DNA of 38,090 nucleotides from an uncultured Clostridia bacterium (lineage in GTDB: Bacteria > Bacillota > Clostridia > Oscillospirales > QAMX01). How positions within the stretch are numbered: position 1 is the first letter of the stretch; every line of letters begins with the position of its first letter. A program made the position numbers and the translations under genes. The notes beneath the pieces were generated by a model. The model searched no databases and was not told where the DNA came from. It saw only the letters and a program-made list of their open reading frames with translations. The stretch lies in assembly GCA_944380935.1 (NCBI GenBank), contig CALWJF010000110.1:1-38090 (forward strand), written 5' to 3'. This document shows positions 25,127 to 37,935 of this stretch, in pieces.

Positions 25127-25450
25127 CTAAGTTTTCTTATCTTCTAATGCCTGCACTTCCTCGATATGCTGCAATACACTATCCAGAAGATAGTGTATTG
25201 CCAATTGCTTTTCTTCTTCCGCCAGCAGCTCCATCGTTTGAAGCAGCGAAATATGCAGAATCGATGTTTCCGAAGTTAACTCCGTTACAGCAAAAGCGTA
25301 TTCGCTGGTTTTTCCCAGCACATTTACCTTTGCCTTGATATCACCAGCCATGGCCCTTTCGTATTCACCGCCCATTTTGTCAATGATGTCAAACACAGCG
25401 AATATGACCATTCGGCGGGAACAATTTAAATTTTCCTTTAATCCTGGCAT
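25127..25450 (-). CDS. Unknown 107-residue protein, last gene of the kinase operon
   Basis: No family recognised. The protein is soluble, with no signal or membrane span. It starts MPGLKENLNCSRRMVIFAVFD, has a central strand-rich part (about 45-65: KVNVLGKTSEYAFAVTELTSET) and ends in an acidic helical segment (LLAEEEKQLAIHYLLDSVLQHIEEVQAL). The ATG at 25450 is chosen for AAGGAGAACAAAA just upstream; seven more residues are possible from a weaker upstream start. It starts 25 bp after the second kinase gene stops, so it belongs to the same transcript. By context it may be a cytosolic partner, regulator or substrate of the kinases. Confidence 0.7.
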   Translation of the reverse strand: MPGLKENLNCSRRMVIFAVFDIIDKMGGEYERAMAGDIKAKVNVLGKTSEYAFAVTELTSETSILHISLLQTMELLAEEEKQLAIHYLLDSVLQHIEEVQALEDKKT

Positions 25451-25475
25451 TTTTGTTCTCCTTGCTTCCAAAAAT

Positions 25476-27620
25476 TTATGCTACCGGGCGAAGAGAACCC
25501 ATAATATCTGTTCTTAACCCGTTATTATCCAACTGTGCCTCCTGGCTGGAAGTAATAATCATCAGATATGCATGATCTTGCCATATTGAAACGGAATATG
25601 ACATATAAATAGGGATTCCTTCGCTTTCATAGGTATAGTTTTGAATGATCCATTCCATTCCCCCGCTGTTTTGTGTCTTCTGTTCGTCAAGCGGTTCTAT
25701 GCTGGGGTATACTGTGCTCAACCCTTCGGTTACCTGTTTGAAAAGCCCGTCCACAGTTTCTGTGCCGGCTGATGAAAGCGCACTGACGGTAAGAATAAAA
25801 TAATCGCTGTCCGCCATGGAGATGGCGGTCAAGATACCGTTTTCAATCTTGAAGTCCAAAGCTGGTACATCGTCTGCATACATAAACTGAAACGGAAGCG
25901 TTGCGTCGGAAAGCAGCTTATAACTTGTTCCTGCCGGCCCCAGACATTGGAAGGATTCTACGGACAACAGGACCTTTTCTTCTGCAGCATCGTTCCCCTG
26001 GGGATATGAGGCGATCACGTTGTAACATCCGAAACCATTTTGAGCATCAATGAACACCGCCAGGAAACGCATCGTAGAACCGCTTTTTTCCGTAGCTTCG
26101 AACTGAATCCGATATGAATTCAGCGCACCAATCTGCTGGTAGCCTTCGCTCAGAATTCTGTAATCCGTAATGTCCGTACTGTGCAGAATGCCGATGAAGT
26201 ATTGGACATATTTTTGCGTATTGGATTCCACATCCGTTAAAGAATACACAGGAAAGCCGGACCAATAGGTATAAAATCCAATTTGAAGGGAGCAGCTTCC
26301 ATCTGATGAAATGAATACTGCGCTCTCGGGATCGGTTTCCTTGAAATCAGCCGGGATCTTCATGGAAAGATTTAAATAGGAATTGGAATAATCGACAAAC
26401 GCCGGCTGTATGCTGCTGGGTTCTGATACGCTGCTTCCAGATTCTGACACAGGGTTTGACGGTTCGGAAGTTTTCACGTCGGATGGAGCGCGGCTCTCTG
26501 ATAAAAACTTCCAAATGCCCAATCCGCTTACTGCAATGCATACGATTAGTGCCGTGATTTTCAGGGCAAAACATTTTTTCGGGGGTTTCGTCCGGGTTTT
26601 GCCGTTCTCTGACGCCTGTTTCCTATATCGCTTCGCGACTTTTCGTGAAGATGATTCGGCGTTTCCGCCTGTGACAGCCTGCAGGAACGCGCCCATGGAA
26701 GGATAACGATGTTGCGCTTTTACCGCCATGGCTTTCATTATGGCCGTTTCTATGTTCACCGGCAAGGAAATTCCCAACTCAGAAGGCCTTTTTAGGGTGT
26801 CGAGATGAACTCTTGCGATGGAATCCGGCGGCAGTTCTCCTGTAATGCAGCGGTATAGTGTGGCGCCCATAGCATATACATCCGTCCATGGACCCTGGTT
26901 ACCGTGACTGGAATACTGTTCTTCCGGCGCAAAACCGTGTTTCAGAATTACCGAGACGCTTTTTTCCTCTCCGGAGGAATACCGTGCCGCTCCAAAGTCC
27001 AGCAGTTTGCTCTTTCCATTTGAAGTAATAAAGATATTGTCAGGACTAATGTCCCGGTGGGTGAGTCCCGACCCATGGACTTGGATCAATGCTTCCATGA
27101 TGGGCTGGAGGATGGTCAGCGCCTGGTCATACGGGATTTTTCCGCTGCGGGACACAAGGTAGGCCTTCAGACTTATTCCGTCTACATACTCCATCACAAA
27201 GTAGGCCGTGTTGTTTTCCCTGAAGTGGTCCTGTACTGAAACAATATTCGGTGTTCCCCGGAGCTTGGCCAGGATTCTTGCTTCATCCAGGAAACGGTTC
27301 AGCCCGCTTTCGTAGTCTTCTATCCTGTTCCCGGTCAGTACCACCCGATAGTGGTCGGTATAACGTGTGGCAAGGCCGGAGGGCATATACTCCTTGATGG
27401 CGACCTCGATTTCCAGCAGTAGATCGTAGCTGAGATAGGTAATACCAAAACCGCCTATGCCCAATACCTTGCCTATGAGGTACCGCCCTCGAAGTATGGT
27501 TCCCATTGGCAGGGCCAGGAAAGGCGGCTCTTCCTGCGCATTAAACCCGCAATATGGGCAGACAGGCAAACCCTCTGGCTTTTCCCGAAAACAGCCGTAA
27601 CAAACGCGTCCTAAATCCAT
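25476..27620 (-). CDS. Transmembrane Ser/Thr protein kinase 2 with zinc-ribbon N-terminus
   Basis: 714 residues. A four-Cys zinc-ribbon (CYGC...CPYC, Cys 7, 10, 21, 24) precedes a full Hanks-type kinase domain (about 47-315): glycine loop GKVLGIGGFGITYL, Lys76 in VAIKEYMPS, HRDISPDN (Asp190), DFG (Asp208) and APEEQY. One membrane span lies at about 351-373. A Ser/Pro linker and an extracytoplasmic domain (about 410-714) follow, weakly like PsbP/DcrB-type folds by pattern. The start at 27620 has AAGGAG upstream; a TTG at 27647 is less likely. It is a close paralogue of the preceding kinase across both kinase and outer domains. It probably senses an envelope signal and phosphorylates the FHA proteins or other targets. 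Confidence 0.9.
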   Translation of the reverse strand: MDLGRVCYGCFREKPEGLPVCPYCGFNAQEEPPFLALPMGTILRGRYLIGKVLGIGGFGITYLSYDLLLEIEVAIKEYMPSGLATRYTDHYRVVLTGNRIEDYESGLNRFLDEARILAKLRGTPNIVSVQDHFRENNTAYFVMEYVDGISLKAYLVSRSGKIPYDQALTILQPIMEALIQVHGSGLTHRDISPDNIFITSNGKSKLLDFGAARYSSGEEKSVSVILKHGFAPEEQYSSHGNQGPWTDVYAMGATLYRCITGELPPDSIARVHLDTLKRPSELGISLPVNIETAIMKAMAVKAQHRYPSMGAFLQAVTGGNAESSSRKVAKRYRKQASENGKTRTKPPKKCFALKITALIVCIAVSGLGIWKFLSESRAPSDVKTSEPSNPVSESGSSVSEPSSIQPAFVDYSNSYLNLSMKIPADFKETDPESAVFISSDGSCSLQIGFYTYWSGFPVYSLTDVESNTQKYVQYFIGILHSTDITDYRILSEGYQQIGALNSYRIQFEATEKSGSTMRFLAVFIDAQNGFGCYNVIASYPQGNDAAEEKVLLSVESFQCLGPAGTSYKLLSDATLPFQFMYADDVPALDFKIENGILTAISMADSDYFILTVSALSSAGTETVDGLFKQVTEGLSTVYPSIEPLDEQKTQNSGGMEWIIQNYTYESEGIPIYMSYSVSIWQDHAYLMIITSSQEAQLDNNGLRTDIMGSLRPVA

Positions 27621-27767
27621 CCTGACCTTCTCCTTCTGCGCAACCAAATACCCCTATGCGGGCAGTGCGAAATTTCCATGGAATTCATCGTATAGGTAAT
27701 CTGGCCCTGCGCCTCTTTTCTGCCCACTTTGGCTGTCGGACGGATTCCGACGGCTAAAGGGAGTCTC

Positions 27768-30068
27768 TTACCAGGGGCGAACGCTTGCCAGCACTTGATT
27801 GCACAGTGCGATCACCGCCTCTTGATTTGAAGCGTTGTACATGGCACTCATATAGAAACACTGGCCGTCGATGACCGCTGCGGCGCTGCTGAAATTAAAG
27901 GAACTTATTGTATAATCCTGGCAGAGCCATTCTGCTCCGCCCAGGGCAACCGTATATCTCTCTCCTACGGTTCCGCCGGCAGCAATAGCCGAATCAACGT
28001 GAGCGTTAAGCAGCTCTTCCGGCGTACTATAGCCATACTCTGAGACGTATCCGACTTCCACCCCTCCGGAGTCTGGAGAGTCGATGTTGCCCAGGCCGGC
28101 GTCCATGGCGGCTTGCGTTGGATAGATTACAATTACCTTCGCTACGCCGTTTTCCAGTTGGATCTCTGTCTCCCATACGCTCCCCAGCGCAATGGAATCG
28201 TCGATGATGATCTTTATACCGACGTTGTCGCTGTACCACATGCTGTAGGTTGTATCCGGTACACCATTGCTCTGAAAGGTTTGTAGGATCTCATAGACCT
28301 CCTCCTTGCCTGCCTCGTCGCCTAAAGGGTAAGCACCTAACACACTGTAGCAGCCAAAAGGATTGCTTCCCTGTATTGCCATATAAATCAGTTCCATGGA
28401 AACGCCGTCCTTGTCGGTGCCCTCAAAACAGATCTGATAAGCCTCCTGGCTGCCTATACTGTCAGGACCTGCTGTGAGAATCGTATAATCCGTCACTTCA
28501 AGTTCGGTCATCACCGAAGAAACGATCATTTCCCGGTTCGTTGCCACATCAGAAAGGGAATAAACAGGGACTCCGATATTCCATACGAAATTGGCCATGA
28601 TCGCACAGCCTCTGTCCGCATTTACGAAGGTAAATCCATCTTCGCTTACTGCATAATCGGAAGGAATATCAATACTGGCATTGAGAATTCCAAGGTCCCT
28701 TGTTTCCATCTGCACTGTGGAAACGGACGGGTCAGATGGTTCTGTTGAAGTGTCCGGCGTTTCATCTGGAGCATTGTCAACAGGAGGATCTTCAACCTCT
28801 ATATCAGGATCGCCTATATCAGGATCGCCTATATCACTACTTCCGATATCTCCAACACTGCCGCCGCCGGTGGGTGTAGGGTTTTTCCCGCCGGAGAGTA
28901 TAATCGGTAACAAAACACACAACACAATCACAACCGCCAGCCCGCTGCCGGAAACCCAGGCAATTACGGGATTGGCTTTGAAATAGGCAATCAGTTTGGA
29001 AAACGCAGAAGATTTCTGTATGCCTGTGTCGTTCCCACCATATACGGTTTGGCTGAAGGAAGAGGCCTGCGTTCGTTCACGCACACTGGCGGAAACTTGG
29101 TCCTGTATCGAAACCTTACCTGTTAAAGCACGGAGAAAAGCGCTCATATTGGGGAAACGATCTTCCGTTTTCACCGCAAGCGCTTTTAAAATCGCTTGTT
29201 CGATGTTTTGCGGGATATAAATCCCCAGTTCCGAAGGTGTCTTGAGTGTATCGCTGTGCATTCGCTCCATAGAGTCCGGCGGCAGCTGCCCGGTAATGCA
29301 GCGGTACAAGGTGGCGCCCATAGCGTAGACGTCGGTCCAGGGCCCCTGGTTTCCGTGGCTGGAATACTGTTCTTCCGGTGCGTAACCGTGTTTTAGAATA
29401 ACCGACACGCTTTTTCCGTCGCCCAACGCAAACCTGGCGGCTCCAAAATCCAGCAGCCGGCTAGTTCCCTGTGAAGTGATATAAATGTTGTCCGGGCTGA
29501 TATCCCGATGCAGAAGGTTAAGCGCATGTACCTGGATCAATGCTTCCATGATGGGCTGAAGAATCGTCAACGCCTGGGTATATGGGATTTTATCCCCCTG
29601 GTTAGCCAGATACGCCTTGAGACTCATTCCATCGACGTATTCCATCACGAAATAGGCGGTGTTGTTTTCTTTGAAATAATTCTGCACAGAGACAATATTG
29701 GGCGTATTTTGCAGCTTGGCGAGGATTTTTGCTTCGTCCAGAAAACGCTCCATGCCGTATTGATAATCCTCTTCTACCTGTCCGGTTCGTGTAACATTGT
29801 ATCGGTCTGCATTCCGTGCAGCAATGGATGAGGGCATATATTCCTTGATGGCAACGGTGATTTCCAGCACTAAATCGTACCCTAGATAGGTAATACCGAA
29901 GCCGCCGATTCCCAGTACTTTCCCCAGCATATACCGTCCGTTCAGAAGGGTCCCCAGCGGCAAGGCAAGATAGGGCTGCTCCTGGGTTTCGTTGAATCCG
30001 CAATGCGGACAAAAACTGCCCGGTTCTTTTTCACGAAAGCAGCCGTAGCAAATTCGTTCCGGATTCAT
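27768..30068 (-). CDS. Transmembrane Ser/Thr protein kinase 1 with zinc-ribbon N-terminus
   Basis: 766 residues, same plan as kinase 2. The zinc ribbon has Cys 7, 10, 20 and 23. In the kinase domain (about 46-315) are GKVLGIGGFGITYL, Lys75, Glu112, HRDISPDN (Asp189), DFG (Asp207) and APEEQY, so all catalytic residues are present. The activation loop reads KSVSVILKHGYAPEE. One membrane span lies at about 368-392. A low-complexity acidic linker contains a GDPDI repeat (15-bp tandem repeat in the DNA near 28800-28835), then comes an outer domain related to that of kinase 2 (VYSLSDVATN..., PFGCYSVLGAYPLGDEA). The ATG at 30068 overlaps the stop of the 109-residue gene by 4 bp (ATGA). Confidence 0.92.
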   Translation of the reverse strand: MNPERICYGCFREKEPGSFCPHCGFNETQEQPYLALPLGTLLNGRYMLGKVLGIGGFGITYLGYDLVLEITVAIKEYMPSSIAARNADRYNVTRTGQVEEDYQYGMERFLDEAKILAKLQNTPNIVSVQNYFKENNTAYFVMEYVDGMSLKAYLANQGDKIPYTQALTILQPIMEALIQVHALNLLHRDISPDNIYITSQGTSRLLDFGAARFALGDGKSVSVILKHGYAPEEQYSSHGNQGPWTDVYAMGATLYRCITGQLPPDSMERMHSDTLKTPSELGIYIPQNIEQAILKALAVKTEDRFPNMSAFLRALTGKVSIQDQVSASVRERTQASSFSQTVYGGNDTGIQKSSAFSKLIAYFKANPVIAWVSGSGLAVVIVLCVLLPIILSGGKNPTPTGGGSVGDIGSSDIGDPDIGDPDIEVEDPPVDNAPDETPDTSTEPSDPSVSTVQMETRDLGILNASIDIPSDYAVSEDGFTFVNADRGCAIMANFVWNIGVPVYSLSDVATNREMIVSSVMTELEVTDYTILTAGPDSIGSQEAYQICFEGTDKDGVSMELIYMAIQGSNPFGCYSVLGAYPLGDEAGKEEVYEILQTFQSNGVPDTTYSMWYSDNVGIKIIIDDSIALGSVWETEIQLENGVAKVIVIYPTQAAMDAGLGNIDSPDSGGVEVGYVSEYGYSTPEELLNAHVDSAIAAGGTVGERYTVALGGAEWLCQDYTISSFNFSSAAAVIDGQCFYMSAMYNASNQEAVIALCNQVLASVRPW

Positions 30069-30394
30069 ACATGCACCCCCTTTCTTTCGGCCAGCACCCA
30101 TAAATTTTCCTCAATGTGCCGTACTCGGTCCGTATGCCGTAACATCAGCGCTTCCAACCATTTCTGCGCGTTGTCAGCTTTTAAAAATTCAATCTGAATT
30201 TCCAGAGGCTCTACGTAAAAATCTCCGGCATACATCAAAAATCCTTCGCCTTCTATCAAATAGGGAAGTTGCGAGACTTCCCGCAGCACGCCGTCTACAG
30301 TGAGATGGAAGATGGCCGCCGGTTCCTGACCGGCGGTGTCTTCTTCCAATGCTTCCTGCAGCCTTCCGTATTTTAGACAATATCGATCTGTCAT
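30065..30394 (-). CDS. Unknown 109-residue soluble protein in kinase operon
   Basis: No family recognised. The sequence is acidic, with no membrane span: MTDRYCLKYGRLQEALEEDT, a strand-rich centre (AIFHLTVDGVLREVSQLPYLIEGEGFLMYAGDFYVEPL) and a helical end (NAQKWLEALMLRHTDRVRHIEENLWVLAERKG). It lies 7 bp after the protease-FHA gene, and its stop overlaps the kinase 1 start by 4 bp, so the products are made in fixed proportion. It could be an adaptor or kinase regulator; that is inference from position alone. Confidence 0.75.
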   Translation of the reverse strand: MTDRYCLKYGRLQEALEEDTAGQEPAAIFHLTVDGVLREVSQLPYLIEGEGFLMYAGDFYVEPLEIQIEFLKADNAQKWLEALMLRHTDRVRHIEENLWVLAERKGVHV

Positions 30395-30401
30395 AAGCGG
30401 C

Positions 30402-31718
30402 TTACTCCTTTGTTACAACAAATCTGTTGGCATTGTCGCATAAATAAAAGGTGTCGCCCGCAGATAGCTTTTCTACCACATTGGCCGTCAGCTTTTTGCC
30501 GTTGCCAAGGAATGTGCCATAGGAGGACCCCAGGTCGGTGATAAGGAAGCAGTCTTCATTGGGATCGTAGACCACCTGGCAGTGCCGCCCGCTGATACCC
30601 GGTGTGTTTTTATCAAACACAATGTTGCAGGTTGCCGGATCTCTGCCAATGACGACTTTTCCTTTCAATAGGTCAAACCTTTGGCCGGCATATTTTCCGG
30701 TCACGCCACGCAGTACTGCATATTTGCTTATCGGACCACGACCTTTTGCCACAGACTTTTTCTGACCGCCGATTCCCGCAGCGGCCAGAACCGCTCCGCC
30801 CTTTTGCGAGGACATTACCAGCAGTACGATACCGCCTGCCAGAGCCAAAATGCCGATGGGCAGAAATACATAGGCAAACCAGTTGGGTACCCAGCTGAGA
30901 CCACCGGCCATTGTATATTCAATTCTTTCCTGATCGAGGATTTTCGTCAGTTCATCCATAATAATGGCATAGTTCATGCCCAGCATAAGTCCTGTGTCCG
31001 GATCAGTTGCTCCGGAAGCATTGATTCCGATGACCCGACCGTTCTCATCAACCAGGGGACCGCCGGAATTCCCCGGCGCAATGGACACATCCATCTGGAA
31101 CGCCTCGTAGGTTGCCCATTTGGCGTTTACTCGGTTACTGACAATTCCTTTGGTGATGGTCACGTCATTCAGGTCATAGGCTGGAAGCGTTTGTCTGCTG
31201 GAGGAATCCCCGGGATAGCCTAAAGCATAAGCGGTTTCGCTCATTTTGACGGAGTCTGATTCTCGAAGTGTAAGGGAAACCCGCTTGTTTGTGGGGGTGG
31301 GAAGCTTGAGGATGGCGATATCCTTTTCCGTCTGCGGGGAATAATAGACCACCTCTACTTGGGCAAAATCATTTTCTGCGGCAGAATAATACACCTGAAC
31401 CGTTCCCACTACATTCTCATACATTCTGGGGTAAGCATAAGCAGCTTCTACCACATGCCCATTGGTTACAATGTACTGTACCGGCTCACCCGGTTTTCCA
31501 ATTGCCCAGCCTGTACCTGTTCCGCCCATTTGTTCGACGCTTCCGTCTTCATTATACACAGTTGCAACGGCGTAAACCAAGACGACACCTTGGCGGGCCT
31601 CATAGGGTTCGATATTACCGCCTCCTACAAGTCCGAATATGCCGAACACCGTGCCTACGAAGCCGACTACGAGCAGCACAATGGCGGCAATTTGTTTACG
31701 AGTTCTTTTTTTGTCCAT
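30402..31718 (-). CDS. Membrane trypsin-like serine protease with cytosolic FHA domain
   Basis: 438 residues. Span 1 (about 10-32) leads to an S1C/HtrA-like protease domain (about 45-270) with catalytic His88 (VTNGHVV), Asp133 (EKDIAILKL) and Ser218 (APGNSGGPL). Span 2 (about 281-303) and a C-terminal FHA domain (about 345-438) follow. The FHA domain has the phosphothreonine-binding residues in VIGRDPATCNI, ISGRHCQVV and DLGSSYGTFLGNG. The two spans put the protease outside and FHA inside. No PDZ domain is present. The ATG directly follows the PP2C stop (TAAATG), with AAGGAGCGG upstream. Likely role: envelope proteolysis controlled by, or reporting to, cytosolic phosphorylation. Confidence 0.92.
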   Translation of the reverse strand: MDKKRTRKQIAAIVLLVVGFVGTVFGIFGLVGGGNIEPYEARQGVVLVYAVATVYNEDGSVEQMGGTGTGWAIGKPGEPVQYIVTNGHVVEAAYAYPRMYENVVGTVQVYYSAAENDFAQVEVVYYSPQTEKDIAILKLPTPTNKRVSLTLRESDSVKMSETAYALGYPGDSSSRQTLPAYDLNDVTITKGIVSNRVNAKWATYEAFQMDVSIAPGNSGGPLVDENGRVIGINASGATDPDTGLMLGMNYAIIMDELTKILDQERIEYTMAGGLSWVPNWFAYVFLPIGILALAGGIVLLVMSSQKGGAVLAAAGIGGQKKSVAKGRGPISKYAVLRGVTGKYAGQRFDLLKGKVVIGRDPATCNIVFDKNTPGISGRHCQVVYDPNEDCFLITDLGSSYGTFLGNGKKLTANVVEKLSAGDTFYLCDNANRFVVTKE

Positions 31719-32648
31719 TTATTTTTCCGCTCCTTTCCCATGGTATTTCAGAACGATTGCTGTATAATTGTCCTGGTTTTCTTTTCCTGCCGCCAGAATT
31801 GTTTCCTCAAGCTTGTCGCAGCAGGCCTGCGGTGACAAAGCCATCGCTTCACGAATCTGTTTTAGAGTCAGTGTGTCGCTCACACCGTCCGAGCAAAGTA
31901 ATAAAATGTCTTCAGACTGCAAGGAAAACGGCATGTAGGTATAGTCGCACTTGACGTCTTCTTTTCCAATATATTCTGAAAGAGCACCTGCCTGCGGATC
32001 TGAAAACGCCTCTTCTACCGGAAAGGCACCCTCAAGAGCACGCAGCACCAGATCGTGTTTGAACTCTTGCCGAACATTCAACGCATAGAGCTTGCCTTCT
32101 CGTGACAGGAACAGATCGCTGTCGCCTACACACCAGAAGGAGAGCTCCTGTCCTCTGAGTAATGCAGCCACCAACGTGGTGCCGCCATGCCCTCGAAACT
32201 GTTGATAGACGAGGCTGCTTCGTTGTCGGACCCACTCCGGTACGGTGCCGTTGTCTTCCCAGGGAAACATGCCGACCATCTCTGTCACCGTCTCCGCTGC
32301 GATTCTACCGCCCTCGGCCATACCGCCCATCCCGTCGCAGAGCACCGCCAGCAGGCCGTCTTCTTCCAGGCGTTCTAAGCGGGAGATTCCAAAGGCGTCT
32401 TGCTGTTCTTCGCGATTACCGAGCCCTTGGAGGTTGGCAAGCTCCAGGACCGGCAGAGGACTCGGCTTCTCGGTAGTCGGGTCTTTCCCATCAGACTTTT
32501 CTTTTTTCCGCTCCTTTCTTTTTTTGATCCGGACAAGGAGCAGGATTATCACCACCACGAGCCCTGCTGCAGCTGCTAAGGCCATCCAAACCCGGATGAA
32601 GCTGTTCTGAAAGAGTGGCTGATTTAGCCACGACAATACACCCTCCAT
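31719..32648 (-). CDS. Membrane-anchored PP2C-family Ser/Thr phosphatase
   Basis: 309 residues. One N-terminal span (about 17-40) is followed by a basic stretch (RIKKRKERKKEK) that keeps the catalytic domain inside. Metal-binding motifs are complete: EEQQDAFG, VLCDGMGGMAEGG, GHGGTTLVAALL, CVGDSDLF, LLLCSDGVSD and NQDNYTAIVL. It should reverse the phosphorylation made by the two downstream kinases. The start codon directly follows the FHA gene stop (TAAATG), with GAGGAAAAATAA in front, so translation is coupled. The Arg usually seen in GDSR is Asp here (GDSD), a point of difference from PrpC/PstP. Confidence 0.93.
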   Translation of the reverse strand: MEGVLSWLNQPLFQNSFIRVWMALAAAAGLVVVIILLLVRIKKRKERKKEKSDGKDPTTEKPSPLPVLELANLQGLGNREEQQDAFGISRLERLEEDGLLAVLCDGMGGMAEGGRIAAETVTEMVGMFPWEDNGTVPEWVRQRSSLVYQQFRGHGGTTLVAALLRGQELSFWCVGDSDLFLSREGKLYALNVRQEFKHDLVLRALEGAFPVEEAFSDPQAGALSEYIGKEDVKCDYTYMPFSLQSEDILLLCSDGVSDTLTLKQIREAMALSPQACCDKLEETILAAGKENQDNYTAIVLKYHGKGAEK

Positions 32649-33191
32649 TTATTTTTCCTCTTTCCATTGGAATTTTTCACCACACAACGGCAGGAACAGA
32701 AGCTGGCTTTTCCCTACTTCGATCACGTCATAGGCGTTCAGCGGATGAACCATCTCGACTTGCTCGTCGTTGCAATAGGTGATCCCTCGGCCCTGTCCGG
32801 GGGAAAGGGAAAAGGTGTTGTGCTTTGCATCATAAGTAACCAATGCATGGCTCTCTCTGGATACGGTGTCGTCATCTGCCAGCGCTACATCCATGGCCGC
32901 TGCCCGGCCGATAAAGTTACGTCCGGATACGAGTTTATAATCTGCGCCGCGATGAGGCCCGGAGATGCATACCAAAAATCCCACAGCGGGGTCAATCCCG
33001 ATTTGCTTTTTTATGATCCCCACTGTCTTTCCGCGATCTGACTCGGGTGCCATACCACCTGGGACAGCGGCTACCGTTTTGCCAACGGAGCCTGCCGCAA
33101 CTGTCTTGCCAACGCCTGCGCCTTCCTGGCAATACGGGCAGCTGTCAAAACGATTTTCATCATAAAAATGGCCGTTGTCACACTGTTTCAT
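32649..33191 (-). CDS. Zinc-ribbon/FHA domain protein with GKTV repeats, first gene of kinase operon
   Basis: 180 residues, soluble. An N-terminal zinc-binding motif (Cys4, His8, Cys18, Cys21: CDNGH...CPYC) is followed by a flexible part with three GKTV motifs (Thr30, Thr39, Thr56) and then an FHA domain (about 70-170) with IGRAAAMDVAL and TVSRESHALV as the phosphothreonine pocket. The design recalls GarA/OdhI, where a kinase phosphorylates an N-terminal Thr that then binds its own FHA domain. The GKTV threonines are therefore likely acceptors; this is inference. GTAGGAGGACATAAA gives a strong ribosome binding site. No convincing promoter was found immediately upstream. Confidence 0.88.
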   Translation of the reverse strand: MKQCDNGHFYDENRFDSCPYCQEGAGVGKTVAAGSVGKTVAAVPGGMAPESDRGKTVGIIKKQIGIDPAVGFLVCISGPHRGADYKLVSGRNFIGRAAAMDVALADDDTVSRESHALVTYDAKHNTFSLSPGQGRGITYCNDEQVEMVHPLNAYDVIEVGKSQLLFLPLCGEKFQWKEEK

Positions 33192-33856: not shown

Positions 33857-35260
33857 TCAGTCTGCAGTAAAATTCATATAACTTTGAAATAAACCAAGCC
33901 GTGTTTTTGTTTCCGTTTTTTCGTAAATGGAGGAGACATACCGTTGGACCATCCGACGTGAAATATATAGGCTGTCGGCGATCCTTTGCAAGTCGTCATC
34001 GGTGGTCAGGAGCCGCTCCAATACTTCTGTTTCGCGGGGAGTCAGGCAACAGCGCTGTGCATATAAACGCAGCCGTTCCTGTTGGGAAATTTCCTGCTGT
34101 TCGGGGAGTGCTTTGTTTTGCTCAGAGACAGCAACTGCGCGGCCAATATGCGGCAGCAATACCAGTAGGATCCCAATTGAACCCAGACAACTTCCTACAG
34201 CCAGTGCTGTGCTGCCCAAAGCATCATAAATTTTTAAGGCTGGCAGGACCGTCGCGGCTACCGTAAGGCTACGTACAATACGCCCCATGCCGGCCCACAG
34301 TTCTGGACATCTGCTTTTCGGTGCAAAATCCAAAAACATCATGGTAAAAAACATTACATAAAAACCACTGTATAGATACGTCAGCGCAATGCCCGCAAAA
34401 TAACTGACTTCTTCCGATAGAAAAAACATACAGATAGAAGAAAGCAGCATGGCGCATACCGTGGCAAGAGGAAGATAATTTCTTCCCCGGACATCTGCAA
34501 TAAATCCCGCAGCAATCAGTCCCAAAGCATAGAATAACCGAACGCCGCTGTATACATCATAAATTCTCTCGGCATTAAAGGCGGTCAGCACACTGTCAAT
34601 CATTCCCGCTACCAGGCTCATCAGTACGACGGAAAGGATCAAGGCGATGGCTGTTTTACGATCCCGCTGATTTTCCGAGGAATACGGAAGCGGATTTTCC
34701 AAAATCCAGTCCTTCGGCGCCCGGATGATAAAATACATTACAAATGCTACGCTTAAGAAGATACTGATCATAAAAACGACCGACTGCGGTGTTAGATTCT
34801 GCACGATGAACTGTAAGAAGATTGCCGTCGCCATGCCCGTGCCAATTATTCTCCCCGCATAACGGCTCCCGGTAAAATACATTGCTGTATTATAATGCAC
34901 ACAGCCACCGATATGGCCGGTCAGAAGCAGAGCTGCAGTAGAGCTTATCAGGAAGACAACCGGTCGGTTTGCAATCAATAAAACAGCGGCGGCTGCAAGG
35001 CATAGAGCACCAATGATCAGCAGCGCCGCTTTCCTTGACTTCTCTGCTTTGCAGATTCTGCGAAGCAGAGAAAAAGAAAGGAAACCAGCCCCCGTACAGA
35101 AAAGACCGAAAGTATATACGGTATTTACAGCACCGCTTCCGAGAATGACGGCGCAGCGTTCATTGATGAATGCTTCGGTCAACATGAAAGTAAAGAAACA
35201 TAATGCGAAACAGATTCCGCACAGGGACTCAGAAAATCGAGTTCTTTGTTTATTTGTCAT
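33857..35260 (-). CDS. MFS-like membrane protein fused to C-terminal LuxR helix-turn-helix
   Basis: 467 residues. Twelve hydrophobic spans with an MFS-like layout (about residues 10-385) are followed by a polar linker (SEQNKALPEQQEISQQERL) and a LuxR/FixJ-type DNA-binding domain (about 400-465). This domain reads CLTPRETEVLERLLTTDDDLQRIADSLYISRRMVQRYVSSIYEKT. It is a one-component regulator held in the membrane, presumably sensing a small molecule through the transporter-like part. AAAGGAGGTCGAGCA precedes the ATG, which overlaps the stop of the 70-residue upstream gene. Similar fusions are known as large families in gut anaerobes such as Eggerthella; the ligand and targets here are unknown. 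Confidence 0.88.
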   Translation of the reverse strand: MTNKQRTRFSESLCGICFALCFFTFMLTEAFINERCAVILGSGAVNTVYTFGLFCTGAGFLSFSLLRRICKAEKSRKAALLIIGALCLAAAAVLLIANRPVVFLISSTAALLLTGHIGGCVHYNTAMYFTGSRYAGRIIGTGMATAIFLQFIVQNLTPQSVVFMISIFLSVAFVMYFIIRAPKDWILENPLPYSSENQRDRKTAIALILSVVLMSLVAGMIDSVLTAFNAERIYDVYSGVRLFYALGLIAAGFIADVRGRNYLPLATVCAMLLSSICMFFLSEEVSYFAGIALTYLYSGFYVMFFTMMFLDFAPKSRCPELWAGMGRIVRSLTVAATVLPALKIYDALGSTALAVGSCLGSIGILLVLLPHIGRAVAVSEQNKALPEQQEISQQERLRLYAQRCCLTPRETEVLERLLTTDDDLQRIADSLYISRRMVQRYVSSIYEKTETKTRLGLFQSYMNFTAD

Positions 35261-35469: not shown

Positions 35470-35497
35470 ACGGCTCACCTCATCGTTGTTTTAATAT

Positions 35498-35526
35498 GGT
35501 ATAACACAAAAGCTTTCTGAATGCAA
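35498..35526 (-). promoter_or_regulatory. Promoter of the LuxR-MFS operon
   Basis: On the minus strand, TTGCAT (35526-35521), 17-bp spacer, TATACC (35503-35498), about 30 bp before the first start codon. Confidence 0.65.
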
Positions 35527-35537
35527 TAAATATTGCA
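35522..35537. promoter_or_regulatory. Palindromic operator candidate over the -35 box
   Basis: TGCAATA-AA-TATTGCA is a perfect 7-bp inverted repeat that covers the -35 element of the LuxR-MFS operon. It is a good site for autoregulation by the regulator or control by another dimeric protein. Confidence 0.5.
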
Positions 35538-35539
35538 AA

Positions 35540-36149
35540 AATTCCTGATTTTTTGACATGGCGGAGTCTGTAAACAGGTGCAATCAGATATAGAATTGTT
35601 TTATGGCTTCAACGTTCGATTTTGATGGTTGAAATAAAAACGAAACGAAATAAAAAGGGTAAGGATATATAAAAATGGTATATTGACAGTGGGGAAATTG
35701 ATCCGGATGACAAAAAGCAGCTTTTTATTCGTTGTATTAAAGCGTATGTCAATGCAATTGTCAAATGATTCCTTTGATACAGGATGCTGCATTGGAGATA
35801 GGCTAATGAAAATATGAAAAACCTTGGATGCGTATAACTTCAAAGGCTTCTGGAATGAATGGGCTCATGGATGAAATGAGAAACAGAACGGTTTTGCTTC
35901 GTTAATGGAGAAAGCATTTGGAAACACGTGGCTCGTAAGCCGGATGTTGTTAATATATGGGTTGGCCGGTCAATGGCTCCGCCGTTTAACGGAAAAGACA
36001 ACGGAAGTGTGTTTGTAAAACAATGTGTAAAAAATTCTGAGATCAACAGGAAATGCAAAGCAAACCTGCTGAGGGTTGCTGTCTGGGATCAAAGTGTAAT
36101 TTGTACTTATTAAAGAGCCGGGACCTCTTACGTTAAAATATTTAAGACG
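35540..36149. other. A-T rich degenerate region, no intact gene
   Basis: Only short frames. A stop-bounded stretch at 35679-35768 reads YIDSGEIDPDDKKQLFIRC and ends AYVNAIVK, and a 61-residue frame at 35928-36113 starts MARKPDVVNIWVGRSMAPPF. Neither has a convincing start with a ribosome binding site or a recognised family. They look like remnants at the edge of the mobile-element debris. Confidence 0.35.
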
Positions 36150-36435
36150 AGGTTGCTTATTTCAGATTTATGGAAGCTTTTTGGGTAATGGAATAGTTGT
36201 AAGTTCTCAGATAGCATAAGAGAAGGAAGCTTCAGGCCGTTTTCCGCTTTGAACAGATAACGGGGTGGGTAGCTTGGCTTTTGCGTTTGCTTTACTGGAG
36301 ATTGCTGCCACAATGACGGTGGTACTGTATTTGTTTCTGGATAATCAGAACCGGGCGGCAGCCTTCCTGCTTGGAGCCGTCTCCTTGGCCTAAATCGGCA
36401 TAGTACATATCGCCGCGCAAGTATGTTCTGTTCAT
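36150..36435 (-). pseudogene. PemK/MazF-family toxin gene, frameshifted
   Basis: After a good ribosome binding site (AAAGGGGGC) the gene starts MNRTYLRGDMYYADLGQG and continues EGCRPVLIIQ, the typical N-terminus of ICE-borne MazF/PemK endoribonuclease toxins. The reading frame then shifts: TTVIVAAISSKANAKAKLPT follows in one frame and YLFKAENGLKLPSLML in another. At least two indels have therefore occurred and the original frame stops early. The intact protein would cut mRNA. No antitoxin gene is visible next to it. It is inactive as read, unless the shifts are sequencing errors. Confidence 0.72.
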
Positions 36436-36600
36436 GTTGTATGCCCCCTTTGAAATTCAGACAGTCTGCGCCGCCTATGTAGAAGCCGGCCAACAGGGTA
36501 GAAGGAAGGCCGGGGAAATATAAATATTTTTCTTATTTCTCAGCCTGTTCTGCTGCACGGCCATATTTCAAAGCAGTCCAATTTGTCCTCGGCACCCCCG

Positions 36601-36754
36601 GACTGCTGTGGGCAGTCATCAAACGGTTGGCAACTCACCAGCTCCACGGGGAATCTCACCCCTCGCGTGGCCTCACGCAACCGCCCCCATTGCCTGCGAC
36701 GGATTACACCGTCAGATCGGACTTCACCTGTTCGTTTTCGCCCAAAGGCGAAAA
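36601..36754. other. Cluster of five perfect hairpins (structured RNA or oriT candidate)
   Basis: Five short perfect inverted repeats lie within 154 bp: GACTGC/GCAGTC (36601-36617), GGGG/CCCC (36648-36662), GCGTG/CACGC (36665-36678), GACGG/CCGTC (36698-36713) and TTTTCGCC/GGCGAAAA (36735-36754). Both strands are open in some frame here, but neither product looks like a protein. The density of stems suggests a folded non-coding RNA of the conjugative element or an origin of transfer. Confidence 0.45.
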
Positions 36755-36858
36755 GCTCACTTGTTTCGTCGCGTCTCCTCTTCCCACAAAGTTTTTCAAT
36801 TTTGCGGGAACCTTTACAATGCTTCAACGCACGGACGTTTGTCTGGACGGAAGTATCC

Positions 36859-37098
36859 TTATCCCCGCCGCTGATCATGGGTGATACCGGAAACCACCTG
36901 GCATTGATAGCCGACTGTTTTTCGCTCCATGCAGATAGAACAAGCCGAAGACCTTCCTACGTTCTTTTCGGTGCTGTCTTGCTGTTCCTGTCCGGCAGGT
37001 TCTCGCACAGCCGCTGTCGGGGCTTTTGCTTTCGCCAAAGAAGCGGGAACGTGCTTGATGAATGGGTATACGGTTTTCAAGGTTCGGGGAGAGGTCAT
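36859..37098 (-). CDS. Possible small mobile-element protein
   Basis: The minus-strand frame from MTSPRTLKTVYPFIKHVPAS to GITHDQRRG (79 residues) has protein-like composition (Ala/Lys-rich middle, one CSIC) and a weak AGAGG upstream. It lies just after the sigma-like pseudogene in the same direction. No family recognised; it may be spurious. Confidence 0.25.
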   Translation of the reverse strand: MTSPRTLKTVYPFIKHVPASLAKAKAPTAAVREPAGQEQQDSTEKNVGRSSACSICMERKTVGYQCQVVSGITHDQRRG

Positions 37099-37149
37099 AA
37101 AAAAACCTCTTCCCCTTTTTGCCATTGGGTGAAAGGTTTGTACCACATT

Positions 37150-37592
37150 GTTTCAAAAGATTTTTCAGTTTTTGAGAATCCTGATTTTCCGAAGCTGGAT
37201 TGCATTTCAATATATGCCCAGTTCTTCCGCATACTGCCGTTTCGTCTTTTCCTCAAAGAACAATGCCTGGATCAACGCTTGGCTTCTCCGGGGGCGGCAT
37301 CGCCGGGGCGATATCTAGCGTGTCCACCTCCAGCTTAGGAAGCACCGTGTTCTCTACGCTCTCTCCTCACCGGGGAACTGCCGGGCGTTTTCATCCATCA
37401 GCCGGTCTAAAGAATCTTCGTGGCTGGGGATAATTTGTACTACCTGTCCCTTCTTTCCGAGAATGAACCGTTTGGTTTTCAGGTCACAAAGTAACGCATC
37501 TTTCTGTCGCTTTGCGTATAGGCCATATGCACTTCATCCGAGACCTCGACATATTGGCTGCGAATCCATATTCTTTTTTGCCAGCTTTCACG
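37150..37592 (-). pseudogene. Sigma-70-like regulator of a conjugative element, decayed
   Basis: Pieces of one protein appear in successive minus-strand frames: IRSQYVEVSDEVHMAYTQSD with RKMRYFV, then ILGKKGQVVQIIPSHEDSLD with RLMDENARQFPGEE, then LEVDTLDIA, then ALIQALFFEEKTKRQYAEEL, then KLKNLLKQCG. In this order they match the sigma-factor-like (region 4) proteins carried by Tn1549-type elements. At least three frame changes and internal stops separate them, so the gene is dead. Confidence 0.65.
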
Positions 37593-37600
37593 CTGTTTAT

Positions 37601-37644
37601 CTCCCGGTCAGACCGAATTTTTCAAAATCCAGACTGACCGGGAG
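37601..37644. repeat. Inverted repeat upstream of the sigma-like pseudogene
   Basis: Perfect 11-bp arms CTCCCGGTCAG (37601-37611) and CTGACCGGGAG (37634-37644) around a 22-bp loop. Neither side has a T run, so it is more likely an operator or RNA structure than a terminator. Confidence 0.6.
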
Positions 37645-37836
37645 ACTGTGGCAACTGACGCTTGGAATAGTCGTAATGTCGCTAAAAACAAAAAACCTTT
37701 GTGTAGAGATAAGTTTTTCTGCACAATTGATTTTAGTTCATAATATAAGTCTCAATGTTTCTTTATGGGGGCAGGGGCTTTTTAATAAATCAACTCTGAT
37801 AATGCAAATACTTATATAAATGGAGGTGAACTGTAA

Positions 37837-37935
37837 GTGCATAATCATCCTGAAATGTTTGGAAGTATCGTCAAAGTTACTCGTGAAAACGCCGGAATCA
37901 CTATGGAAGTGTTGGAAAACAAAGTAGATACTGTC
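37837..37935 (+). pseudogene. XRE-family helix-turn-helix regulator, N-terminal fragment
   Basis: A GTG start with a perfect TGGAGGTGA ribosome binding site begins a typical Xre repressor N-terminus (FGSIVKVTRENAGITMEVLE, NKVD). The homology stops at about 37932, halfway through the helix-turn-helix. The frame then continues for 34 residues antisense to a parA fragment, so the gene is truncated by a rearrangement. Confidence 0.6.

Follow-up and report, generated by a model that had tools for sequence, protein, structure and literature searches.

A conserved phospho-signaling operon that joins kinases, PP2C phosphatases and a GarA-like FHA adaptor to an FHA-tailed membrane protease

RESULTS

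We analyzed a 38,090-nucleotide stretch of DNA from an uncultured Clostridia bacterium (here called the window) and found that a run of genes at positions 25127 to 33191 is almost certainly one conserved phospho-signaling module. The conserved unit has five parts: a soluble zinc ribbon-FHA adaptor (ZnFHA), a membrane PP2C phosphatase, a second PP2C, an FHA-tailed membrane output, which in the window is a protease, and one or more kinases. These parts are linked to each other far beyond chance.

Layout of the operon

All seven minus-strand open reading frames given in the preliminary description were found. In the direction of transcription, they encode ZnFHA (32649 to 33191), a soluble adaptor of 180 amino acids; a membrane PP2C (PP2Cm, 31719 to 32648) with a single N-terminal transmembrane (TM) segment and a cytoplasmic catalytic domain; a protease-FHA protein (30402 to 31718) consisting of a TM segment, an extracytoplasmic trypsin-like (S1C) protease, a further TM segment and a cytoplasmic FHA domain; a 109-amino-acid protein (30065 to 30394); the kinase KinA (27768 to 30068), with a zinc ribbon, a Ser/Thr kinase domain, a TM segment and two extracytoplasmic domains; its paralogue KinB (25476 to 27620), which has the same layout; and a 107-amino-acid protein (25127 to 25450). 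For KinA, KinB and the 107-amino-acid gene, ATG starts at 30068, 27620 and 25450 were preferred over the longest reading frames. Pfam domains and intact catalytic motifs bore out the earlier assignment of two TM kinases, a membrane PP2C, a soluble FHA protein and a protease-FHA fusion.

The packing of the genes was described as tight, and this holds for the TAAATG junctions between ZnFHA and the PP2C and between the PP2C and the protease, as well as for the ATGA overlap that joins the 109-amino-acid gene and KinA, but not for KinA and KinB, which are 147 bp apart. The spacing from the protease to the 109-amino-acid gene is 7 bp, and that from KinB to the 107-amino-acid gene is 25 bp, with an AAGGAG site present. 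An inverted repeat without a T run (CGTCGGA...TCCGAC), spotted by eye in the gap between the kinase genes (27621 to 27767), is a possible attenuation or mRNA processing site; an Rfam scan of the whole window returned no RNA family. Elsewhere in the window, the interval from 35480 to 37900 holds no convincing gene, just short overlapping reading frames on both strands, and likewise no Rfam match.

Conservation and distribution of the core

An order-level search of 295 genomes with the protease-FHA protein as the query matched 18, including the window's own; we fetched the 17 other loci and picked their genes homology-first. ZnFHA, the membrane PP2C and the protease-TM-FHA protein occurred together in 17/17 of these loci, and kinases (one to four) were present in 16, the contig of the remaining locus ending early. 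Named genomes were also scanned with the ZnFHA alignment alone, in the form of a subset because the full alignment was too diverse, and 422 relatives were found. The best 80 of the 422 came from Clostridia, Bacilli, Heliobacterium, Synergistetes, alpha-, beta-, gamma- and delta-proteobacteria and an acidobacterium; the alpha-proteobacterial set includes one record titled Rhodospirillaceae, and two of the scanned loci (L056 and L062) are contigs also present in the order-level set.

Forty-two loci were well flanked (8 kb or more on either side). A kinase was present in all 42, PP2Cm in 40 and the second PP2C (PP2C2) in 39, and the full set including an FHA-tailed membrane protein was found in 38. 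Adjacent core pairs were co-oriented in 232/232 cases. Furthermore, pairwise distances among the four core families were correlated (r = 0.58 to 0.73, 49 loci, 0/999 permutations), a correlation that also reflects the shared ancestry of the hosts. All parts are under purifying selection (dN/dS 0.03 to 0.17). The arrangement can be read directly from the RefSeq annotation of an Azospirillum lipoferum 4B plasmid, where the gene order is FHA-FHA-PP2C-PP2C-trypsin-DUF805-kinase. The distribution is patchy, with the module in 8 of 299 phylum-sampled genomes at an E value of 1e-20. When 606 non-core neighbors were clustered, no target gene recurred, and the groups obtained were limited to common ABC genes, two-component genes and antisense artifacts.

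These results support the earlier proposal that writer, eraser, readers and a membrane protease sit in one unit, since the linkage extends across Clostridia and far beyond. Homologues scattered without linkage, which would have spoken against that proposal, were not the pattern observed (core linked in 17/17 and 38/42 loci). What is conserved in content, however, is the five-part core and not the set of seven genes, of which the 109-amino-acid gene is a decayed PP2C2 and the 107-amino-acid gene is not part of the core.

The adaptor and its conserved threonine

ZnFHA (Pfam FHA/Yop-YscD_cpl, 3.7e-11) combines an N-terminal zinc ribbon, predicted from the sequence, with a Thr-rich linker that contains GKTV repeats and Thr56 and with a C-terminal FHA domain. 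The zinc ribbon occurs in 93 of 97 ZnFHA proteins, and a linker Thr lies 8 to 14 residues ahead of the PVVGW motif in 97/97. At the +3 position of this Thr, V, I, L or M is found in 79/97 proteins (81%), versus 171/415 (41%) for the other linker Thr residues, and the linker consensus is (D/E)(D/E)G(R/K)TVA(V/I/L)I. The conserved Thr motif, TVxI, given also as TV[AG][VIL], is of the FHA-type pTxx[I/L/V] ligand pattern, which is the ligand rule of FHA domains (PMC8786283). The nearest solved structures to ZnFHA are those of GarA, the pThr22 form included (sequence match, E value = 1e-5), and the NCBIfam OdhI model gave an E value of 2.5e-6 and 27 bits against a cut-off of 200. The most economical reading is that ZnFHA docks in a phosphorylation-dependent manner, the phosphorylation itself being a step that we infer.

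The membrane protease and other FHA-tailed outputs

The protease-FHA protein matched Trypsin_2 (3.8e-26) and FHA (1e-13) in Pfam. Its catalytic triad is intact, and H88, D133 and S218 are invariant in the alignment. The FHA core of the membrane output is conserved as well. Many of the FHA domains of these proteases, including that of the window, have Y in place of the N of the NGT motif, and the usual FHA Arg is also missing in 3 of 18 protease-FHA proteins; because of these changes, the output may bind pThr weakly or differently.

A protease is the FHA-tailed output in 21 of the 42 well-flanked loci. The other FHA-tailed membrane outputs are VWA proteins, VWA proteins with a peptidoglycan-binding domain, PrsW, RDD and an ABC2 exporter. 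With half of the clusters lacking a protease, proteolysis is not the universal output; the membrane output is swappable, and the protease is one among several interchangeable types. Since the same core elsewhere pairs with other FHA-tailed membrane proteins, the FHA tail would, in the model that we propose, act as an address label for outputs on a common core. On a Leisingera plasmid, a kinase/FHA/PP2C set lies just upstream of two dynamin-family genes (locus L173, 9023 to 15580), which are possibly a different output of related FHA modules.

Kinases and phosphatases

KinA and KinB matched Pkinase (2e-31 and 1e-30, respectively), and their HRD and DFG motifs are intact. Both have a putative N-terminal zinc ribbon, and Thr is absent from their activation loops. 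Pfam gave no match for the kinase ectodomains, the first of which (36% identical between KinA and KinB) was placed by structure prediction only. The model of KinA ectodomain 1 matched PsbP in Foldseek (2.5e-5) and aligned with CyanoP with a Z score of 14.6 and an rmsd of 2.8 over 139 residues; the KinA model was built from a three-sequence input and has a pLDDT of 64 overall, mostly 74 to 89 in ectodomain 1. The predicted fold is thus PsbP/Mog1/DcrB-like, although a shared fold shows no function. Among the loci gathered, relatives of these ectodomains were found in the sister genus only, and the kinases of other clusters carry different ones (LRR_5, Flg_new or adhesin-like). Sensing of the envelope or the outside by the module is plausible.

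The membrane PP2C matched PP2C_2 in Pfam (1.4e-7) and the NCBIfam Stp1 model (3.6e-23, below its cut-off); its metal-binding Asp residues are all present, and the motif columns are invariant in the alignment. The two small proteins of the operon had been listed as unknown. Pfam indeed has no family for either, but both could be placed. In the alignment, the 109-amino-acid protein corresponds to the C-terminal portion of PP2C2, starting just past the GDSR motif; its N-terminal half is missing and the SDG and DN catalytic motifs are replaced. A PP2C2 profile built without this protein scored it at an E value of 9e-6 (search space of 20,000 sequences). An intact PP2C2 occupies the same position in 14 of the 17 order-level relatives, and the shortened form is found also in the sister genus (G003). 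Judged from these alignments, the 109-amino-acid protein is what is left of a second PP2C and lacks the catalytic residues. Compared with its counterpart in the sister genus, the gene has a dN/dS of 0.165 at a dS of 0.9, which indicates purifying selection and argues that it is not simply decaying.

The same genome carries a second cluster on another contig (C85; locus L161, 91 to 5005) with ZnFHA, a response regulator-like gene (so labeled from its sequence only), an FHA gene, a zinc-ribbon PP2C, a kinase and an intact PP2C2, and with no membrane output in view. The intact PP2C2 of that cluster might cover for the decayed PP2C2 of the window.

The 107-amino-acid protein and its MFS-LuxR neighbor

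The family of the 107-amino-acid protein had matches in 10 other genomes of 197 searched, one of them a fusion in the sister genus and one a weak match within a peptidase-like reading frame. In 8/8 of the remaining loci (L147 to L154), several of which belong to one genus, a gene related to the MFS-LuxR fusion gene of the window (33857 to 35260, minus strand; Pfam GerE and MFS_1) lies within 13 kb. In the window, this gene is upstream of the operon. It was found in 0/80 genome-scan clusters and, among the 17 order-level clusters, in the sister genus only. The 107-amino-acid protein is therefore a passenger of the operon that belongs to an MFS-LuxR-linked family and not to the phospho core; this family and the MFS-LuxR fusion regulator form an uncharacterized pair. 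Because of its own terminator-like site (33839 to 33816), the MFS-LuxR gene is probably a separate transcript.

The 107-amino-acid protein is predicted to fold as a helix-grip-like alpha/beta sandwich (pLDDT 87), and the model has weak matches to START/PR-10, BamC and KA1 domains. In the sister genus (locus L039, 6159 to 8363), KinB is absent and the 107-amino-acid protein is fused in frame at the end of KinA ectodomain 1, which would place it outside the membrane there.

DISCUSSION

A model for the module

The wiring that we propose, and toward which we lean with some reserve, runs from the kinases through the ZnFHA threonine to the FHA-tailed protease, with the PP2Cs resetting it. KinA and KinB would use their PsbP/DcrB-like domains to sense an extracytoplasmic cue and, on the cytoplasmic side, would phosphorylate threonine, a main substrate being ZnFHA at its conserved linker Thr. 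Phospho-ZnFHA might then close on its own FHA domain in the manner of GarA, or the cytoplasmic FHA tail of the protease might bind it, and this docking would recruit, cluster or release the protease, such that the phosphorylation state inside sets proteolysis outside. The PP2Cs would reset the phosphorylation state, one of them having shrunk, in the window, to a fragment. Points that speak against this wiring are the altered NGT motif and the missing Arg of protease FHA domains, the activation loops of KinA and KinB, which contain no Thr, and the clusters that lack a protease. In a broader and more tentative view, which we hold to be possible rather than probable, this is a widespread and as yet undescribed system in which one pThr adaptor serves interchangeable surface-sensing kinases and interchangeable outputs (protease, VWA protein, intramembrane protease or exporter) that share only a cytoplasmic FHA tag, the window being the instance with inside-gated extracytoplasmic proteolysis.

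Bacterial Hanks-kinase signaling is mostly known from PASTA kinases, the targets of which are scattered. In the module described here, the writer, the eraser, the adaptor and the output stay together in a single cassette across phyla, and because a likely substrate residue and its likely reader can be read from the sequence, the path from kinase to output is directly testable. If the model is true, a phospho-gated, outward-facing protease would be an inside-out route of control distinct from DegS-type and sigma-factor routes.

Alternative explanations

That the kinases, phosphatases and ZnFHA serve other targets, as in GarA-like metabolic or cell wall control, while the FHA tail does no more than keep the protease close to the kinases, would fit with GarA being the closest solved relative of ZnFHA, with the existence of clusters without a protease and with the second cluster of the same genome, which has no membrane output in view. 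We nevertheless regard it as unlikely, given that 38/42 loci hold the complete set, FHA-tailed membrane protein included, and that the FHA core of the output is conserved. A real, if rather doubtful, alternative is that the module controls a secretion or contractile-injection machine posttranslationally, in the manner of PpkA/PppA/Fha of type VI secretion systems (T6SS), with the protease as an accessory. At four loci (L167 to L170), a variant core consisting of ZnFHA, PP2C, a PP2C with TPR repeats and a kinase does adjoin a phage-tail-like gene set, in which a Phage_GPD baseplate hub was seen (L169). The window's genome (87% complete), however, has neither a GPD hub (PF05954) nor WXG100 proteins, and clustering of the neighbors of the main loci showed no machine genes. 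A link to type VII secretion was rejected on the lack of WXG100, and one to T6SS or contractile injection on the lack of the hub protein; the latter was kept for the variant loci only, which are possibly a phospho-controlled contractile-injection machine of Firmicutes.

The preliminary description had also considered a defense-type system, and antiphage defense in which a kinase is the trigger and a protease the effector would be compatible with the patchy distribution and with the resemblance, at the domain level, of the kinase and protease to PD-T4-6, MADS and RT-protease defense models. We consider this highly improbable. The topology places the protease outside the cytoplasm, the PADLOC matches are to generic kinase and protease domains and touch none of the other parts, no system-level partners of MADS, PD-T4-6 or BREX kinase defense systems being found, the MAD6 model of MADS (NCBIfam) gave 139 to 147 bits against a cut-off of 460, no phage record carried ZnFHA, and the neighbors of the operon in the window are housekeeping genes. 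Although each part by itself is a common domain family, a chance run of unrelated genes is refuted almost beyond question by the cross-phylum linkage, the 232/232 same-strand neighbors and the correlated distances. The reading that we retain is that of a single phospho-signaling module.

Comparison with known systems

GarA and OdhI are FHA switch proteins of mycobacteria and corynebacteria that are phosphorylated by Pkn kinases. ZnFHA resembles them as a soluble FHA protein whose FHA domain is preceded by a conserved Thr motif, a likeness seen at the level of the motif. It does not reach the score of the curated family, and it differs in its zinc ribbon, in having TVxI instead of ETTSVF and in being encoded beside a kinase, PP2C and membrane outputs. 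The threonine phosphorylation pathway of T6SS (PpkA-PppA-Fha1), which controls an envelope machine, likewise has a kinase, a PP2C and an FHA reader in one cluster, but it has no protease-FHA protein or zinc-ribbon adaptor, and a T6SS-type hub is missing from the window's genome. The pairing of a membrane Hanks-type kinase with PP2C is shared with PASTA kinase/Stp systems (PrkC-PrpC), from which the operon is set apart by its two kinases, FHA readers and protease. Pfam found no PASTA domains in KinA or KinB, which scored 175 and 163 bits with NF033483 (cut-off of 450); PASTA-bearing proteins are encoded elsewhere in the genome. The protease shares an S1C catalytic domain outside the membrane with HtrA/DegP and MarP, yet it has a second TM segment and a cytoplasmic FHA tail instead of PDZ, which the Pfam scan did not find, and it scored 83 bits with TIGR02037 (DegP) versus 416 and 62 bits with the MarP model NF033740 versus a cut-off of 250.

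A kinase-addressed, FHA-tagged membrane output has a precedent in Rv1747, an ABC exporter of mycobacteria that carries two FHA domains and is a phosphorylation target of PknF (FEMS Microbiol Lett 2004, cited in PMC6213207). The output in locus L088 has the same architecture; in mycobacteria, Rv1747 is not reported within a ZnFHA/two-PP2C/protease cassette. GAP1-N2 and TerY-type systems contain a zinc-ribbon kinase/PP2C/vWA triad with a standalone vWA protein (PMC7159879). The zinc-ribbon kinase and PP2C are common to that triad and the operon, and many relatives of the operon have vWA proteins, but the description of the triad includes no FHA adaptor or protease-FHA protein; Pfam found no VWA in the window operon, and the VWA of its relatives is a TM-FHA fusion. 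The preliminary description knew of no pathway with its exact set of genes, and while that set of seven is not the conserved unit, a search of open-licence papers, which is weak evidence of absence, found no account of the ZnFHA/two-PP2C/FHA-tailed-output gene set. The parts are known, and we rate the cassette of a GarA-like adaptor, two PP2Cs and FHA-tailed outputs as a variant of Hanks-kinase/PP2C/FHA signaling rather than as a new category.
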